Shown one piece after another: positions 29,210-36,640 of a stretch of 58,349 nucleotides of DNA (its first letter is position 1; every line of letters starts with the position of its first letter). The notes below the pieces were generated by a model. It was not told the origin of the DNA. It worked only from the letters and a program-made list of their open reading frames with translations, and made no database searches. The translations under genes were made by a program, and so were the position numbers. The stretch comes from a virus. The stretch lies in IMG/VR virus record IMGVR_UViG_3300047494_000286, positions 1 through 58,349 of that record. One strand, given 5' to 3'.

Positions 29210-30850
29210 TCAGGAAAGGATCAGGAGACCTCTCCCGTCCGCATAGATGCCCTCTTCGAGTGGCGCGATGGTCGCGCCACCATGCGCCATGACGGCCGCG
29301 ACGATGCCATCGATCTTGTCCGCTGCCTTTGCCTTCGTCGGCTTGATGTTGCCGGCAGCGTCACGCTCCACCGATGCATTCCGCGCCATCCAGGCTGCCA
29401 CCGGATTGTTGCCGTGCTCGAGCCCGCAAGACGCAACCAGGCGCTCGAAGCTCTTCGCGGCCGGTGACATCGACAGATAGCCTTGCCCGAACCAGTTCAC
29501 CGGCAGCCCGTGCTTGTCCTTCAGGTCGATCGCAAGCTGGCTGGCGTTGTAGCGGTCGATCCCAAGCCACGCGAGGTTGAACGCCGATGCATCCTCGAGG
29601 ATCGCCGCGTGGATGTGATCATAGTCGACGACGTTGCCGGGCGTCAGCGTCAGCGCGCCGGCGTCGACAAACGAGCGGTAGCGCATCTTCCGCGCGAGCG
29701 GTTGGTCTTCGACCGTGTCCATCGGCAGCCAGAAGCGCCAAAGGAACGTCCACCGGCCGTCCTCCGGCTCAACCGGCGGAAACGCATGGCACAGCGCGGA
29801 CAGATCGCGGGTAAGCGACAGGTCGAGGCCGCTCCAGCAGGCACGCCCTTTCATCCGCTCGGGTAGCTCGCGCCACAGTCCAGGGTTCGTGGGTTCGGCC
29901 GTGCAGCCGCGCCAGCCCATCTCGTCCATCGGCAGCCAGCGCGTGGTCTGTTCGGTCCATATGTTCAAATGGAACCGCTTGAAATCATTTTCCTGCCGCG
30001 GCGACCGCGCGGCTTTCACCGCCTCCGCGCGCATATATTCCGGCTTGACCGAAACGCCGTAGTTCGGATTGGCCGCGCGCCAGGTCGCCTCGTCCTTCCA
30101 CTTTTCCTCGTCTGGGGCGGCGAAGATGACCGGCAGAAACGTGGGGTCGGTCACCTCGCCGCGCTGCACCTGCAGGGCCAGCTCGTGCATCTCCCAGGCA
30201 TAGCCCTCGCCGGAGATGCCGGCCGTCGTGATGTAGACCTCCAGCGGCTGGCGACGCGCGGCGGTGCCCTTGTGAACGACATCGGCAAGATCGCCGTTTG
30301 ACCACTCATGCACCTCGTCGCCGATCGCCGCCGAGGGACTGAAACCGTGCTTGCCCGTCGGGCCGGCCGATAGGGGCTTGAACGCTGCGACGAGTTGGGG
30401 ACAGAAAATGCTCGTCTTATAGACTTCGAGGTCCCGGCGCAGGGGCTCCGATCCGTTGACCATAACGCCGGCCTTGTTGAAGACAATATTGGCTTGATTC
30501 TTATCGACGGCCATCGAATAGACTTGGCCGCCCATCTCTGCATCGCCCAGCAACGCCAGCAGGGAAACGCCGGCTGCAAGCTCTGTCTTCCCGTTCTTCC
30601 GTGGGACCTCCAGCCAGACAATCCGGATCAGCCTCGAGCCGTCCGCCCGTTTCCATCCGAAAGTGGGCCGGATGACGCGATCACGCTGCCAGTCGGCAAG
30701 CACGAAGGGGCGCCCGGCCCATTCCGCCTCGGTGTGGCGGAGGTATGTCGGGAAGAACTCGCAGGCAGCTTTCGCCGAGGCCTCGTCCCAATAGGCGCCG
30801 AACGCCTCTCCGCCCGGCGGCATGGGCGGGATCGTGAAGCCGGCCGTCAT
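29210..30850 (-). CDS. Terminase large subunit (packaging motor)
   Basis: 546 aa. ATPase motifs are visible: VPRKNGKTELAAGV (Walker A, about residue 82-95) and SAAIGDEVHEW (Walker B). The nuclease half contains CWSGLDLSLTRDLSALCHAF with the first acidic metal ligand and NLAWLGIDRYNASQLAIDL. It cuts and pumps DNA into proheads. The start shares a base with the small subunit stop. Confidence 0.95.
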   Translation of the reverse strand: MTAGFTIPPMPPGGEAFGAYWDEASAKAACEFFPTYLRHTEAEWAGRPFVLADWQRDRVIRPTFGWKRADGSRLIRIVWLEVPRKNGKTELAAGVSLLALLGDAEMGGQVYSMAVDKNQANIVFNKAGVMVNGSEPLRRDLEVYKTSIFCPQLVAAFKPLSAGPTGKHGFSPSAAIGDEVHEWSNGDLADVVHKGTAARRQPLEVYITTAGISGEGYAWEMHELALQVQRGEVTDPTFLPVIFAAPDEEKWKDEATWRAANPNYGVSVKPEYMRAEAVKAARSPRQENDFKRFHLNIWTEQTTRWLPMDEMGWRGCTAEPTNPGLWRELPERMKGRACWSGLDLSLTRDLSALCHAFPPVEPEDGRWTFLWRFWLPMDTVEDQPLARKMRYRSFVDAGALTLTPGNVVDYDHIHAAILEDASAFNLAWLGIDRYNASQLAIDLKDKHGLPVNWFGQGYLSMSPAAKSFERLVASCGLEHGNNPVAAWMARNASVERDAAGNIKPTKAKAADKIDGIVAAVMAHGGATIAPLEEGIYADGRGLLILS

Positions 30851-31431
30851 CAGTGCAGCTTGGACGGCCCCAACAAGCCGATCGCGCTCTCAGGCGGCGG
30901 TGCTGGCGGCGTGGGGCCGTCGGGATGGGGCGTCGCCCCCGGATTGGGCGGAAAAGGCAGAGCAGGCTGTCCCTGGGCCAGGCGGAGCATGATCTGTTGG
31001 CGGGCTGACGGCGACAGTCCGAATCGGTCCTCGAGCTCGGTCAGGCGCCGCGCCAGTCGCTCCTCGACGATGAACAGCGGGTTGATCCGCTGCATCTTGC
31101 CGTGCGCGCTGTCGGTCCAATAGGTCGCACCGGCCTTGGTCAGTTTCTGCCGGACGTCCCAGAACCGCGCTACCGCATCGCAGTAGCGCGCGAACGCCTG
31201 GCGATCGGTCGGCCGCAGGAAGTTCATGCGCTCGAGTTCGGGCGCTGTCTGGCGCCACACCGAGAGTGCCGCGGCCGTCAGCTTTCCCGGCGGCTTCGTC
31301 GCGCTTGTGACCTTGGCAGCAGCCTTGTCGGCGTCAGTTGGCGTCGACGGCGCGATAGCACGTTTACCGGGATTGCCCTTCGCCGCCTTCAGCGCGTCAG
31401 GTTGTGGCCGCCGTCCGCGCGTCATGGGCAT
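30850..31431 (-). CDS. Terminase small subunit, P27 family
   Basis: 193 aa from ATG 31431 (an ATG two codons later is also possible; an upstream TTG is less likely). The N-terminus TRGRRPQPDALKAAKGNPGK is the hallmark of P27-type small terminases; the centre LRPTDRQAFARYCDAVARFW and GLSPSARQQIML also fit. It recognises the packaging site in phage DNA and recruits the large subunit. The C-terminus is Pro-rich and variable. Confidence 0.9.
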   Translation of the reverse strand: MPMTRGRRPQPDALKAAKGNPGKRAIAPSTPTDADKAAAKVTSATKPPGKLTAAALSVWRQTAPELERMNFLRPTDRQAFARYCDAVARFWDVRQKLTKAGATYWTDSAHGKMQRINPLFIVEERLARRLTELEDRFGLSPSARQQIMLRLAQGQPALPFPPNPGATPHPDGPTPPAPPPESAIGLLGPSKLH

Positions 31432-31538
31432 CGGCCAAGAGCTTTGGCCCTCCAAAAAAAGTTTTCCGAATTTCGCGGCGTCGCGCGCGCACCGGGGATG
31501 CGGTCCGCAAGCCGGATGGTCGTTTGGATCGAGACCCC

Positions 31539-31871
31539 CTATGGGGGGCTGCCGCGGCCCCGGGGTCGATCGCCGGCGGTCCGGGCGTTGTGATGGCTCT
31601 CGCAGAGGGTGCGCAGGTTGGCGTGGTCAAGGCGCAGGTCAGGCCGATCGGCGATCGTCTCGATGTGGTCGACCGCGAAGCCAGCGGTCACGATGCCCTC
31701 GGCCTCACAGAACCGGCACAGCGGTTCCATCCGCAGATGCGCGTCGCGCACCTTCTCCCAGTCACGATCGTAGCCGCGTGACGATGCCGAACCGCGCCGC
31801 ATGTCATGGGCACGCCGCGTCTGCGCGGGCGTCACGCCAAACGGCCGAAAAGTCGGCGGCATCGTCGGCAT
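31539..31871 (-). CDS. HNH endonuclease
   Basis: 110 aa. A zinc-binding HNH module is clear: Cys52-x2-Cys55, AVDHIETIADRPD with His69, Asn85, and Cys90-x2-His-His-Asn. HNH proteins next to small terminase genes in HK97-type phages take part in DNA packaging cleavage, which fits the location here. A homing role is less likely because the gene is coupled to its neighbour upstream. Confidence 0.92.
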   Translation of the reverse strand: MPTMPPTFRPFGVTPAQTRRAHDMRRGSASSRGYDRDWEKVRDAHLRMEPLCRFCEAEGIVTAGFAVDHIETIADRPDLRLDHANLRTLCESHHNARTAGDRPRGRGSPP

Positions 31872-32686
31872 CAGATGAGGCTGACCTGATCATGCCGAAG
31901 CTCGACCGTCGCCGCGTGACCGAAGATCTCGGTGAGGATCCGCAGCCGCTTCTTGTCCGACCACTGGCAAATGCCCGCGAAGGATGCGAACGCGCCTTCC
32001 TCGATCTTCACTGTCTGTCCCTCGCGGACGCGCCCCGTCGGAAACGGCGTCGCATCGTCATCGATGACGCCGTCACCCGCGCGACCAAGCGCGATCAGGC
32101 GCTCGACCTCGCCGACACGAGCAGGCGTCGGCATTTCAGACGTTGGCCCGAGAAGACCCTTGACGTTCGGCAGCGAAGCGATGCGTCGCCATCCAGGCGC
32201 AGCACGATCGAACTCGACCAGCACAAAGCCCGCGATCAGTAGCGCGATGATAGGAAGCCGAGCATTCCGCTTGGGTTTCCGGGAGTAGTCGACGAAGCGC
32301 GGAAGGTGACACCTGAAACCGAGGTTCGCGATCGCCGCATAGACGTCATACTCGGAGCGGAGGTCCGTCTCGACCGCGTACCAGCGAAGGCCGGCATTAT
32401 CGACTGCAACAACTGGCACGTCTGCCCTGCGCGCGCGGCCAGCGCCGATGCGCACGCCGCCAGAATTCGACCGAGCGCCGCCTGAATTTGGCCGTGGGCC
32501 GCCCGCATTCGGTCGCGCACCGCCGGCGTTCCTGCGCGCCCCGCCCCAACCAATCTTGCTGCTGCTGCTGATTTCCGGCTTGACGGGATCAAAGCTACCG
32601 CACTCCAGGGTGTTTTCCCCAAGAGCGCGTGGCGAGCCGGACGCGACCATTATCGAATCGGTTTCCAGTGCGCAAGTGGTTTTCAT
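31871..32686 (-). CDS. NusG-like transcription elongation/antitermination protein with repeat N-terminus
   Basis: 271 aa. Residues about 100-200 look like a NusG N-terminal (NGN) domain: GLRWYAVETDLRSEYDVYAA, GFRCHLPRFVDYSRK, LLIAGFVLVEFD, VKGLLGPTSEMPTPAR. Residues 221-270 resemble a KOW domain (VREGQTVKIEEGAFASFAG, ending ATVELRHDQVSL). Residues 48-82 hold five tandem heptads of GGARPNA type and the first 45 residues are unrelated Ser/Glu-rich sequence. NGN-KOW proteins bind RNA polymerase; here the gene lies just upstream of the late packaging/structural genes in transcription order, so a late antiterminator is my inference. Confidence 0.75.
   Translation of the reverse strand: MKTTCALETDSIMVASGSPRALGENTLECGSFDPVKPEISSSSKIGWGGARRNAGGARPNAGGPRPNSGGARSNSGGVRIGAGRARRADVPVVAVDNAGLRWYAVETDLRSEYDVYAAIANLGFRCHLPRFVDYSRKPKRNARLPIIALLIAGFVLVEFDRAAPGWRRIASLPNVKGLLGPTSEMPTPARVGEVERLIALGRAGDGVIDDDATPFPTGRVREGQTVKIEEGAFASFAGICQWSDKKRLRILTEIFGHAATVELRHDQVSLI
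32441..32545 (-). repeat. Five tandem 21-bp units encoding GGARPNA-type heptads
   Basis: Within the NusG-like gene, five in-frame 7-codon units encode GGARRNA, GGARPNA, GGPRPNS, GGARSNS and GGVRIGA. The DNA units are visibly similar but diverged. The heptads are Arg/Gly rich and resemble nucleic-acid-binding tails. Unit number could vary by slippage. Confidence 0.8.
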
Positions 32687-33591
32687 GCCGCAGCTCCTGC
32701 TAGGACAGGCGCCACCGGCGGCGCGCCGAGGCAGCCGTCAGCCACGTAACGTTCATATTGCCTGTTATAGACTGCAAAGATCGCCTCACGTTGCGGGTCC
32801 AATGTCGACGCAGATGGCTTGGAAGCCCCGCGAATTTTCATCTCATCGCGCACGGCCTGGGTGAAATATCCAAGCGTTGATGGGGTGCGATACGAGCCGC
32901 GCGACGCGACTCGGCACACCACATCGCGAAGCAGCTCCGGCGTCGCGCCCGCCAGGAGCCACTCCTTCACCGGCCCGAAATTGTACGTGCCGCGCGCCGG
33001 ATCGAAACCCGCCAGCTCGGCGAGCTCGGCACCCAGTTCGGCGAACCCAGCAGCTGCTTGTTTGCTTTCTTCATCAGCAAAGGAAGAAGCAGCAGCCGCA
33101 CGCACGCGAGGCGGGTTATCCGGAACGGTTTCCGGTTCGGTTTCGTGGGTTTTGTCGCGATCGGTTCCATGCACGCTCATCAATGGCAGCTCGCGCTGGC
33201 GCATGCGGCGCTCCCGCGCCTGTTCTGGCGTTTCGCCGCGGCGCGGCCGGCCGCCGAAACCGCCGTTCTCCCGCGCCGCCAGGCCGCGCCGCGACGGCTC
33301 CGGCACGGCCGGCAGGCACAGCACGCCGTCGGCGCGCTGGATTATCAAACCGGTTTCCAGAAGGGTTCCGAGTTGGGTTTCCACGTCGGTTTCCGGCATG
33401 GAAACCATCAACGCGATATCCCTCGCGGAACCCACGCGCGAACCCAGCAGGAAAACCCCCGGCTCCGGCAGTTTCACGAGCTGATCGGCCAGCGAAAGCC
33501 ACAGCCACCGCGCGGCCGCCGGCACGACCTTCAGCCTTGGGTCCGTGCGCATCGCATCGATCAGCCAGTCGCATGCACAGCGTCGTCCCAT
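32683..33591 (-). CDS. Putative replication protein with winged-helix-like N-terminus
   Basis: 302 aa, ATG at 33591 sharing a base with the AAA+ gene stop; the longer frame upstream is Arg-rich and out of frame with the real ATPase gene. Residues 10-110 (AARWLWLSLADQLVKLPEPG, ETQLGTLLETGLIIQRADG) read like a winged-helix replication-initiator/DnaD-type domain; a Glu/Thr-rich linker follows, then a C-terminal helical part (TYNFGPVKEWLLAGATPELL) similar to DNA-replication adaptor ends. It neighbours the ATPase and DnaB genes. Function inferred. Confidence 0.6.
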   Translation of the reverse strand: MGRRCACDWLIDAMRTDPRLKVVPAAARWLWLSLADQLVKLPEPGVFLLGSRVGSARDIALMVSMPETDVETQLGTLLETGLIIQRADGVLCLPAVPEPSRRGLAARENGGFGGRPRRGETPEQARERRMRQRELPLMSVHGTDRDKTHETEPETVPDNPPRVRAAAASSFADEESKQAAAGFAELGAELAELAGFDPARGTYNFGPVKEWLLAGATPELLRDVVCRVASRGSYRTPSTLGYFTQAVRDEMKIRGASKPSASTLDPQREAIFAVYNRQYERYVADGCLGAPPVAPVLAGAAA

Positions 33592-34529
33592 CACGCTTCT
33601 CCCCTCGTCGGCGGCCAGGTCAATTCGGATACCAGCTTCGCGCCGCCCGGCTCCCAGAGCGGCGGCCGCTCGATCTCCGGCGGCGGCATCACGGCCGCGA
33701 CGACGCGACCGACCACCTGGACGGGGTCCGATACGTCGCGGCCGATCCGCGCGCCGATCACCAGGCCGCGCTTGATGCCTTCCATCAGCCCGCGCAGCAG
33801 AGCCGGCGACGCGCCGGCGGTGATGGAGCACAGCATGTCGAGATCGTCGTCCGAGAACACGAACGGCAGCCCGTAGCGCCGCAGGATCGCGAAGCGCTCA
33901 TCATCACCGGGCAGATCCACCATGATCTGCAGGTTGAACCGTCGCCACAGCGCCGTATCGAGATCGGCCGGCCGGTTCGTCGCGGCGACCAGCAGCCCCT
34001 GGAACCGCTCGATATGGCGCAGCAGCACTGTCATGACCGAGTTGCGCCCGTTGTCCGCGCCACCCTGGTTGTTCTTGCTGCGACTGCCGCCGATCGCTTC
34101 GACCTCGTCGAGGAACACCAGGCACTCGACCTCCGTCTCGGCCAGGGTGCGGAACAGCTTGTCCACTTGCTGCTCACTCTCGCCCAGATATTTGGAGAAG
34201 ATCGACTCCGCGCCGACCAGCAGCATGGGAATGCCGATGCGCGCCGCCAGATGGTGCGCCAGCGTCGTCTTGCCGCAGCCGGGCGGGCCATGCAGCAGAG
34301 CCGTGCTGCGCGCCTTCAGCCCAACGGCCGCAAGCTCCTCGGCCGCGCGCAGCTCCGCGAGCCATTCGAACACGGCACCGCGCGCGCCTGGCGCCAGGAT
34401 CGGTTCCTCGGCCTCGTGCGGCTCCAGGATCTCGCCGAACCGGTCCATGGCCCTTCGCAGCTTCGTGGCAGGCGATTCGCTGCGCGAGCTGCGATCGCCC
34501 GATCCCATTCGATACCCCGAGGACGGCAT
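33591..34529 (-). CDS. AAA+ ATPase, possible helicase loader or chaperone
   Basis: 312 aa. Walker A GPPGCGKT at residues 81-88, Walker B CLVFLDEVE at 136-144, and a second region of homology VAATNRPADLDTALWRRFN (181-199) with the sensor Asn and arginine finger. This is the classical AAA type as in FtsH/CDC48-like ATPases rather than DnaC type; no protease or helicase domain is attached. Its position between a replication-like protein and DnaB suggests a role in loading or remodelling the replisome. Confidence 0.85.
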   Translation of the reverse strand: MPSSGYRMGSGDRSSRSESPATKLRRAMDRFGEILEPHEAEEPILAPGARGAVFEWLAELRAAEELAAVGLKARSTALLHGPPGCGKTTLAHHLAARIGIPMLLVGAESIFSKYLGESEQQVDKLFRTLAETEVECLVFLDEVEAIGGSRSKNNQGGADNGRNSVMTVLLRHIERFQGLLVAATNRPADLDTALWRRFNLQIMVDLPGDDERFAILRRYGLPFVFSDDDLDMLCSITAGASPALLRGLMEGIKRGLVIGARIGRDVSDPVQVVGRVVAAVMPPPEIERPPLWEPGGAKLVSELTWPPTRGEA

Positions 34530-34532
34530 GCG

Positions 34533-35162
34533 TTAGGTGCCCCCCGGCGGCGCGGGTGGCGGCGGCGCACCCTTTGGCGGCTTGGTCCGTCGAAAGGCCG
34601 CCGGCACGTCCATGCCGTCGGACGCCGACGCCGCGCACCATCCCTCGTCCCACGCGCCACGGCGCGCATCGCCGGCGGGATGCGGGTTCTCGGTGACACG
34701 CTTGCCGGCCTTCGCCGCAGCCGCGCCCTGCGCCTTCGCAGCCAGCAGATCCTCCGGCGTCGCCGGAGGCGGCGACAGCGGCAGGGAAGGGTCGGGATCC
34801 GGCGCGCCGTCGGTCCCAGACGAGGGCGCGCCGTCGGCCGGCGCCGTGCCCGGTGCAGGCGGCGGATTGTCGGACTTCTGCTGCATCAGCCGCCGCCGCG
34901 CCGCATCGCCCAACGGCGTGCCGTCCAGCATGCCCAGCGCCGCCCGGTAGATGTCCAGCATGGCGCGCTCTTCCTCGCGCGCTGTCTCGTCCATGCGGCG
35001 CTCTCGCACCATGGCGCGCATGTATTTCGGCTCGAAACCCTCTTTCTTGGCGTCGGCGTAGATCGCCGATATGTCGTCGGCCAGCGCCCGCTTTTCCTTC
35101 TCGAGCCGCTCGATCCGCTCGATGAACGATAGCAGCCGTTCGCTGTTTTTCTCCGCCTTCAT
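34533..35162 (-). CDS. GapR-like (DUF2312) domain fused to an Rmf/CrpP-like domain
   Basis: 209 aa, ATG at 35162 in an ATGA overlap with the DnaB gene stop. Residues 5-80 match GapR/DUF2312, an alphaproteobacterial nucleoid protein that clamps overtwisted DNA: LLSFIERIERLEKEKRALAD, YADAKKEGFEPKYMRAMVRE, AMLDIYRAALGM. After a Pro-rich linker (about 97-135), residues 138-185 resemble the small Rmf/CrpP fold: AKAQGAAAAKAGKRV, ENPHP, RRGAWDEGWCAA. GapR normally ends after its single domain, so this is an unusual two-domain form. It is cotranscribed with replication genes. Confidence 0.8.
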   Translation of the reverse strand: MKAEKNSERLLSFIERIERLEKEKRALADDISAIYADAKKEGFEPKYMRAMVRERRMDETAREEERAMLDIYRAALGMLDGTPLGDAARRRLMQQKSDNPPPAPGTAPADGAPSSGTDGAPDPDPSLPLSPPPATPEDLLAAKAQGAAAAKAGKRVTENPHPAGDARRGAWDEGWCAASASDGMDVPAAFRRTKPPKGAPPPPAPPGGT

Positions 35163-36640
35163 CGATCCCCCCCGTCCACCGCAAGGTCGGTGAACCACAC
35201 GTTCTCATCGGAAAACGCCAGCTGCTTGGTGCCCGTCGCACCCATGCGCTGCTTGGCGATGATGACCTCGGCCCGCCCGCGCGCGGCAGCCTCGGCCGCT
35301 GCCCACACACTCGAACGGTTGCTGACGCTCTCTTCGGATTCGCCGGGTCGCCGCTTCACCGGCATGCGCGTCAGGTAGTAATGCTCGCGATACAGGAACA
35401 TCACGACGTCGGCGTCCTGTTCCAGGCTGCCGGACTGTCGAAGATCGGCCATGCCCGGCCGCTTGTCCTCGCGTCCTTCCGGCCCGCGGTTGAGCTGCGC
35501 CAGCATGAGCACTGGCACATCCAGGTCGACCGCCAGCGCCTTCGTCTCCATCGACAGCCGCGTGTACCGCAGCGTCTCATTGTCGCTGCGCTCCAGCTCC
35601 GGCACGCGCAGCAGCCCGAGGTAATCGACCACAACAAGGTCAAGGCCGCCGCGGCGCTTCTCACGCCGCGCGCGGCTGCGAATGGCCGCAATCGTTCCGG
35701 CGCGGCATTCGTCGATGATCAGATGCCGCGTGGTCATGGCGCGCTGGGCCGCGACCATCAGGGCGATGTGCTGATCGTCGATCGGATTCCAGACGAACTG
35801 GCCGGTCGCGGTCCGGTCGCGCAGCCGCCCGCGCTCGGCCGCCGTCCCGGGCACGGGCGCCAGGCCGGCGGTCAGCTTTGCGCCGATGGCGATCTGCGGC
35901 ATCTCCCGCGTCACGAACAGCACACGCGCGCTGGCCGACGCCGCGCCGACAGCCATGCCAAGGGCGAGCGTGGTCTTGCCCATGCTCGGCCGCGCCGCAA
36001 GCAGCACGAAATGGCCGCCGCGCCATCCGCCGGTGATGTCATCGAGCTCGCGATACCCGGTGGTGACGCCGACCAGGCCGCCGGGCCGGCTGCTGTTCTT
36101 CACCGCCGCATCGATCGCCTGCGACATGCTCTCGTGTGCCGGCAGCGCCTTCTCGCCCGGCGTCAGCCCGTCCGCCAGCATGAACAGCGCGCTTTCGGCC
36201 TTCTCCTGGATCTCCTGCGGCGATTTCTCCGGATCGGCGCCGAACGCTTCGTCGACCATCTCGACGCCGATCGCGATCAGCTTGCGCCGATGCCAGCAGT
36301 CGAAAACCGCCTTTCCATATTCGCCGGCGTTGATGATGCCGACCATCGCTGCCAGCAGCTGCCCGAGATAGGCGACGCCGCCGACGTCTTCCAGCACGCC
36401 GCTACCTTCAAAGACACCCTTCAGGGTAATAGCATCGGCCACGCGCCCCGCGTTGATCAGCGCGGCCGCCGCTTCGTAGACGCGACCGTTGACCGGATCG
36501 GCGAAATGCTCCGGCCGCAGGAAATCCGAGACGCGATCAAACGCATTGTTGTTCGAAAGGATCGCGCCGAGCAGCGCCTGCTCGGCCTGCAGGTTCGCCG
36601 GCGGCGTACGCTGCGATATGCCGTAAAGTGGGCTTCTCAT
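35159..36640 (-). CDS. dnaB: Replicative DNA helicase, DnaB family
   Basis: 493 aa. DnaB N-terminal domain (LQAEQALLGAILSNNNAFDR, LRPEHFADPVNGRVYEAA), linker helix, then the RecA-like core: TTGYRELDDITGGWRGGHFV, Walker A ARPSMGKTT near 216-224, LDLVVVDYLGLL (Walker B), MLAQLNRGPE and the conserved ADVVMFLYREHYY. It unwinds the fork as a hexamer. No phage primase or polymerase gene is seen, so host enzymes must be used. Confidence 0.95.
   Translation of the reverse strand: MRSPLYGISQRTPPANLQAEQALLGAILSNNNAFDRVSDFLRPEHFADPVNGRVYEAAAALINAGRVADAITLKGVFEGSGVLEDVGGVAYLGQLLAAMVGIINAGEYGKAVFDCWHRRKLIAIGVEMVDEAFGADPEKSPQEIQEKAESALFMLADGLTPGEKALPAHESMSQAIDAAVKNSSRPGGLVGVTTGYRELDDITGGWRGGHFVLLAARPSMGKTTLALGMAVGAASASARVLFVTREMPQIAIGAKLTAGLAPVPGTAAERGRLRDRTATGQFVWNPIDDQHIALMVAAQRAMTTRHLIIDECRAGTIAAIRSRARREKRRGGLDLVVVDYLGLLRVPELERSDNETLRYTRLSMETKALAVDLDVPVLMLAQLNRGPEGREDKRPGMADLRQSGSLEQDADVVMFLYREHYYLTRMPVKRRPGESEESVSNRSSVWAAAEAAARGRAEVIIAKQRMGATGTKQLAFSDENVWFTDLAVDGGDR

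Follow-up and report, generated by a model that had tools for sequence, protein, structure and literature searches.

The window analysed here is the whole of IMG/VR virus record IMGVR_UViG_3300047494_000286, 58,349 bases in length. It encodes an integrase (55.7-57.0 kb), a repressor (42.0 kb), a contractile tail with sheath and tube, and an HK97-type terminase, and the phage is therefore a temperate myovirus. Nearly all called genes from DnaB (36.6 kb) to the endolysin (1.6 kb) lie on the minus strand, and the gene of a NusG paralogue is located exactly at the border between the replication genes upstream and the HNH, TerS, TerL, portal and other late genes downstream. The features of the locus, in the direction of transcription, are as follows.

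32683 to 36640, minus strand: upstream replication block, transcribed in the same direction (DnaB helicase, GapR-like protein, AAA ATPase and an ORF without Pfam match)
31871 to 32686, minus strand: nusG paralogue gene, ATG start, 271 amino acids
32588 to 32628, minus strand: hairpin-ops element of about 41 nt inside nusG, the hairpin GCGCTC...GAGTGC leading straight into GCGGTAGC
32594 to 32605, minus strand: ops-like core TGCGGTAGCTTT, identical at 9 of 12 positions to E. coli ops GGCGGTAGCGTG
32441 to 32545, minus strand: five Arg/Gly heptads covering residues 48-82, variable among relatives
31539 to 31871, minus strand: HNH endonuclease, its start overlapping the nusG stop (TGATG)
30850 to 31455, minus strand: terminase small subunit (TerS)
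29210 to 30850, minus strand: terminase large subunit (TerL), with which the presumed target, the packaging and structural genes, begins
1641 to 29196, minus strand: presumed target block (portal, head protease, major head protein, head-tail adaptor, sheath, tube, tape measure, baseplate and endolysin)

The ORF without Pfam match lies just upstream of nusG, and its stop overlaps the nusG start. Both ends of nusG therefore overlap neighbouring genes, placing it inside an operon and not behind a leader of its own. The late genes presumed to be under its control comprise about 31 kb of structural and packaging genes downstream of nusG; two small plus-strand ORFs are called within the presumed target block, at 2.8-3.8 kb. 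The preliminary description, made from sequence alone, had placed the gene upstream of the packaging and structural genes on the same strand, and this is confirmed. Within the replication block, the gene at 34533-35198 (minus strand) encodes a single phage protein in which a GapR-like DNA-binding domain precedes a region that resembles ribosome modulation factor (RMF) only weakly, with a score under the cut-off. The AAA ATPase at 33591-34529 (minus strand) resembles the anti-phage ATPase IteA (7e-38, far below the IteA cut-off) and has a 44% identical relative in Rhodobacter phages (L003).

The product of 32686-31871 is a NusG/Spt5-family protein in which the NGN and KOW domains are both present, as previously claimed. 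An N-terminal extension (about residues 1-97) precedes the NGN domain (about 101-197) and the KOW domain (about 220-269). The NGN domain matches Pfam NusG above the curated cut-off (E 1.1e-9, 39.1 bits against 22.2), PHROG 6386 'transcription antiterminator' matches over NGN and KOW (E 8.5e-13), and E. coli NusG chains align across both domains (E 5e-12). The NCBIfam NusG match (E 4e-13) reaches 49.5 of the 135.7 bits set for the housekeeping NusG equivalog; similarly, the cut-offs for the RfaH equivalog (28.9 of 144.5 bits), LoaP (22.5 of 125 bits) and UpxY (29.4 of 100 bits) are not attained. An AlphaFold model of residues 90-271, computed with nine relatives (mean pLDDT 75), displays a beta-alpha-beta NGN and a beta-barrel KOW, with NusG and RfaH as the nearest solved structures, so that the NGN fold withstands the structural check proposed for it. 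A prediction by AF2 with three sequences only (pLDDT 33) was not usable. The KOW is modelled as a beta barrel and not as the alpha-helical C-terminal hairpin of autoinhibited RfaH, although such models can miss a switched fold.

The five Arg/Gly heptads are exact (GGARRNA48, GGARPNA55, GGPRPNS62, GGARSNS69 and GGVRIGA76), but the emphasis previously laid on them was misplaced. Their number varies from none to five in the family, relatives other than the window having none to about three comparable copies, and the heptads are probably not essential because its members do not conserve them. An essential RNA-binding role for them was considered and not adopted, given the relatives that lack them. 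A rival reading would make the protein an accessory of packaging that works mainly by binding DNA or RNA through the heptads, with the NusG fold as a mere scaffold. The gene does adjoin the terminase region, and GGARPGAGRP-type stretches are familiar from phage proteins of the terminase neighbourhood. In contrast, L126-L129, L189 and L203 retain NGN and KOW without any heptads, and most of them have the element, while the bacterial relatives are found at polysaccharide operons and not at packaging genes. There is thus very little to recommend this reading.

The position of nusG before packaging genes recurs. The nearest TerL relatives accompanied by a NusG are on two contigs from Acetobacteraceae MAGs, in which TerL is 75-77% identical over the part present, NusG is 37-38% identical to that of the window, and the order DnaB, accessory gene, NusG, HNH, TerS, TerL is the same. 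When 397 Acetobacteraceae genomes and 385 genomes of Alphaproteobacteria were searched with a profile, NusG was found ahead of packaging genes in eleven further phage-like loci. Two unrelated kinds of terminase follow phage nusG, HK97-type TerL and lambda-type GpA; the kind was assigned by Pfam in L119, L120, L121, L126, L127, L191, L193 and L203, and by similarity or inspection only in the others. The phage proteins require at least two origins in a tree of 73 NusGs, in which L189 and L203 nest inside a bacterial polysaccharide clade and the window NusG lies outside it. Many close TerL relatives, as close as 69%, have other genes in the slot, and no NusG was found near TerL in this set. The slot is often occupied there by a phrog_9306 protein (L008:3287-3886, L010:3149-3781, L004:3166-3816 and L012:2217-2834), which might conceivably be a different late regulator, although it has no Pfam match and such a role could not be shown. 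Cultured phages yielded only distant NusG matches by tblastn, many of them annotated as ordinary or host-like NusG, and single-sequence scans of IMG/VR for direct relatives of the protein found none.

The N-terminal start had been described as 45 residues unique to this protein, which does not hold: the pattern TTC...ECGS...E..SK.G.GG is common to its relatives. This stretch of protein is conserved because it encodes a conserved nucleic-acid element, which is present once in the whole window. The element (32628-32588) reads GCGCTC TT GGG GAAAACA CCC TG GAGTGC GGTAGC, forming a 7-bp lower stem, a T-T mismatch and a 3-bp upper stem followed by GCGGTAGC. This hexamer is the core of ops, the recruitment signal of E. 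coli RfaH, and the bases that RfaH needs most, G4, G5, A7 and G8 (PMC5995543), all fall within it. The first three bases of TGCGGTAGCTTT are the end of the 3' arm of the hairpin; the site resembles an ops to which a hairpin has been attached. It is located about 1.1 kb before TerS and not in a dedicated leader. An RNA or ops-like site, which the preliminary description had proposed to seek downstream of 31.9 kb, therefore exists, but inside nusG. No known family was retrieved by an Rfam search of the element.

Nine phage nusG genes share the hairpin running into G(G/T)(T/C/A)AGC. In a plain MAFFT alignment the 7-bp lower stem is 93.7% paired, against 25-54% in slid registers, and the covariation score was reached by 1 of 500 shuffles. 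The sequences were trimmed to begin at the 5' arm, which MAFFT misplaced when they were left untrimmed or when loops varied highly; trimming or model alignment solved this. Covariance-search alignments lean towards structure, whereas the MAFFT-based pairing count does not. In most phages the 3' part of the element is translated as ECGS, and this accounts for the unusual-looking start of the protein. Across the phage nusG genes, however, the 5' arm occurs in every one of the three reading frames, and the elements of L189, L191 and L203 overlap with the stop codon of nusG, adjoining the terminase genes, so that it is the nucleic acid and not the peptide that is conserved. The core is changed in L120, L121 and L125 (GTAAGC, GTTAGC), and no convincing element was found in four phage nusG loci (L122, L123, L124 and L129).

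Strong matches (E < 1e-5) of the first covariance model in 397 Acetobacteraceae genomes were confined to the eight phage nusG loci on which it had been trained, and the element is thus not scattered elsewhere in these genomes. This model also found copies in bacteria, at polysaccharide operons, directly downstream of the NusG paralogues. A second model (R2), combining phage and bacterial copies, was equalled by 0 of 500 shuffles on every measure. In a blind R2 scan of 385 whole genomes of Alphaproteobacteria, 18 of 19 matches had a NusG or polysaccharide context, the exception being the weakest match. Eleven were at NusG-paralogue genes, one of these in a phage gene and ten on the same strand, 38-219 nt downstream of the matched NusG domain. 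Seven more lay just upstream of polysaccharide-type genes: five at Polysacc_synt_2 genes, one beside a GFO/IDH/MocA oxidoreductase and one at an ABC transporter, the last two pointing less strongly to a polysaccharide operon than the five. Training rows account for six of the 19, and 12 of the 13 others had a fitting context. After the hairpin, the bacterial copies mostly continue as TGCGGTAGC and then a variable NTG/NTT; GCGGTAGC is invariant in the 21 copies counted, and identity to E. coli ops averages 9.5 of 12 positions in bacterial copies and 7.7 in phage copies. At seven loci (L217, L219, L221, L223, L225, L226 and L227) the element precedes surface-polysaccharide-type genes without an adjoining NusG gene, and in three of these (L217, L219 and L221) the NusG paralogue of the genome is on another contig. 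Action in trans is a possibility raised by such elements.

A third model (R3) was built exclusively from 21 bacterial polysaccharide copies (covariation reached by 0-1 of 500 shuffles). It provides the most powerful single test: its best match in 672 kb of phage loci and NusG-less controls is the element of the window (33.8 bits, E 3.4e-7). Most other phage copies rank next, L120 and L125 weakly, and the NusG-less TerL relatives contain nothing below E 0.37. Four unlinked contigs also score, as expected because a DNA pattern had chosen them. Because R2, the model used to gather the R3 rows, had itself been trained partly on phage copies, the choice of rows is not fully independent, although the rows themselves are. 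The pure DNA pattern GCACTC-N14-26-GAGTGCGGTAGC matched 16 IMG/VR contigs. A nusG gene overlaps the site in nine of them (6 of 10 distinct loci); the seven without nusG there (four distinct) need no explanation, since chance alone would give about 15-25 matches by our own rough estimate. When the hairpin is left out, the bare 16-mer GGAGTGCGGTAGCCAT is also matched at loci that have no NusG (L205, L206, L208 and L211), and the hairpin is therefore needed for specificity. The window meets both criteria of the group defined here, alphaproteobacterial NusG paralogues with a hairpin-ops element: it has the paralogue and the covarying element.

These distributions bear on three other readings of the element. 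It could belong to DNA packaging, replication or recombination and lie near nusG by chance of gene order, as its proximity to terminase genes in phages might suggest. However, the bacterial copies are not found among packaging or replication genes, the phage packaging modules differ in kind, NusG-less TerL relatives lack the element, and a different conserved element lies directly before TerS; this reading is highly improbable. Alternatively, the element could be an autoregulatory pause or attenuator limiting the synthesis of NusG, or its translation, without acting on late genes. The site does lie within nusG in the window and in most phage relatives, as is the case for autoregulated RNA-binding proteins. 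Its position at the nusG stop in L189, L191 and L203, adjoining the terminase genes, suits downstream action instead, as do the bacterial sites that follow nusG or precede polysaccharide operons without an adjoining nusG, and autoregulation alone is an unlikely account. Finally, the site could be read mainly by a capsule or exopolysaccharide NusG paralogue of the host, the phage protein being a helper or competitor. In favour of this, the same models recognise phage and bacterial copies. Against it, the site travels with phage nusG across diverged lineages, and TerL relatives without nusG lack it. This too appears improbable, and whether the host of the window phage has such a paralogue is unknown.

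The reading we prefer is that the phage NusG is a specialised paralogue acting as a late antiterminator that loads at a site in its own gene, to which we give a probability of roughly 0.72. The evidence shows to which fold family the protein belongs, that its gene order recurs, and that a conserved, covarying element is associated with NusG paralogues; binding, replacement of host NusG, read-through and timing are inferred. RNA polymerase arriving from the replication genes would transcribe the 5' part of nusG, the nascent hairpin would form, and the polymerase would reach the ops-like pause sequence GCGGTAGC. There the phage NusG would bind the elongation complex via its NGN domain and remain bound in place of host NusG, suppressing pausing and Rho-dependent polarity over the next ~31 kb of late genes, across which the KOW domain may couple ribosomes. 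With its loading site inside nusG, the early-to-late switch would feed itself, more NusG leading to more transcription running from early into late genes. This mechanism is inferred from the anatomy of the locus, the ops core and known NusG paralogues, and whether the RNA hairpin, the non-template DNA or both would be read is undecided. No excess of intrinsic terminators or sigma-70-like promoters was detected in the 17-37 kb of the window scanned, and a need for antitermination is not shown; as intrinsic terminators are not enriched there, relief of Rho-dependent polarity is the likelier benefit. The earlier proposal of a late antiterminator of the RfaH/LoaP kind is thus supported as the best reading, on comparative evidence and without expression, binding or read-through data. 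Against it count the phage nusG loci with a missing or changed element, the many close TerL relatives that lack NusG, the absence of terminator enrichment, and the distance of about 1.1 kb between the site and TerS.

The phage protein can be compared with several known systems. Like RfaH and ops (JUMPstart) in E. coli, it combines a NusG paralogue with a GCGGTAGC core situated in the transcribed region before a long target operon, which in bacteria serves surface polysaccharides. RfaH reads ops as non-template DNA (PMC5995543). In contrast to that system, a covarying 7-bp hairpin is joined to the core here, no comparable stem being present in the E. coli JUMPstart copy examined, and the phage gene and site are within the target operon. 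LoaP of Bacillus is likewise a NusG paralogue encoded beside a long target and needs an RNA hairpin for recruitment (PMC12691694). However, the LoaP hairpin is of the UNCG type and located in a leader, whereas the phage loop GAAAACA has no UNCG, is followed by an ops-like core and lies inside a gene. The genes of UpxY (Bacteroides) and of the polysaccharide-linked alphaproteobacterial NusG paralogues similarly head the operon they are presumed to regulate, and the latter share the hairpin-ops element with the phage, but their targets are capsules and not phage late genes. Lambda Q, Q21 and GafZ, the antiterminator of the Caulobacter GTA (PMC11150451), resemble the phage NusG in their placement at the replication/late border and in the proposed read-through of a late or GTA cluster; they are unrelated proteins that load at promoter-proximal DNA sites, whereas the phage NusG is inferred to load within the operon. 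PHROG 6386 provides a family name only, with no element or mechanism found described for it. Wang et al. 2020 (PMC7593976) mention rfaH-like genes on prophages, without such an element in the passages bearing on it, and no report of a phage late NusG or an alphaproteobacterial ops was found in the open-licence literature searched.

The way in which NusG paralogues beyond RfaH and LoaP locate their targets has yet to be resolved (PMC7593976, PMC12691694), and a compact covarying signal has now been found for a whole alphaproteobacterial group of them. If the late-antiterminator reading is correct, several phage lineages made the hairpin-ops signal the gateway to their late genes, with at least two separate captures supported by the tree. 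It would also represent a kind of late switch unreported in the literature searched, in which a NusG paralogue replaces Q and the loading site lies in its own gene. A bolder reading, which remains only a possibility, is that the phage NusG and the capsule or exopolysaccharide NusG paralogues of the host share one hairpin-ops recruitment code. Infection or induction could then redirect host capsule operons, or a host paralogue could switch on prophage late genes.

A second conserved sequence, similar to GCGAAATTCCGAAAACTTTTTTT, is located just before TerS in the window (about 31455-31490, minus strand) and is also found in L004, L006, L007, L008, L010, L015, L017, L022, L025 and L056. It occurs in relatives both with and without NusG, and might be a cos site or a late promoter element.
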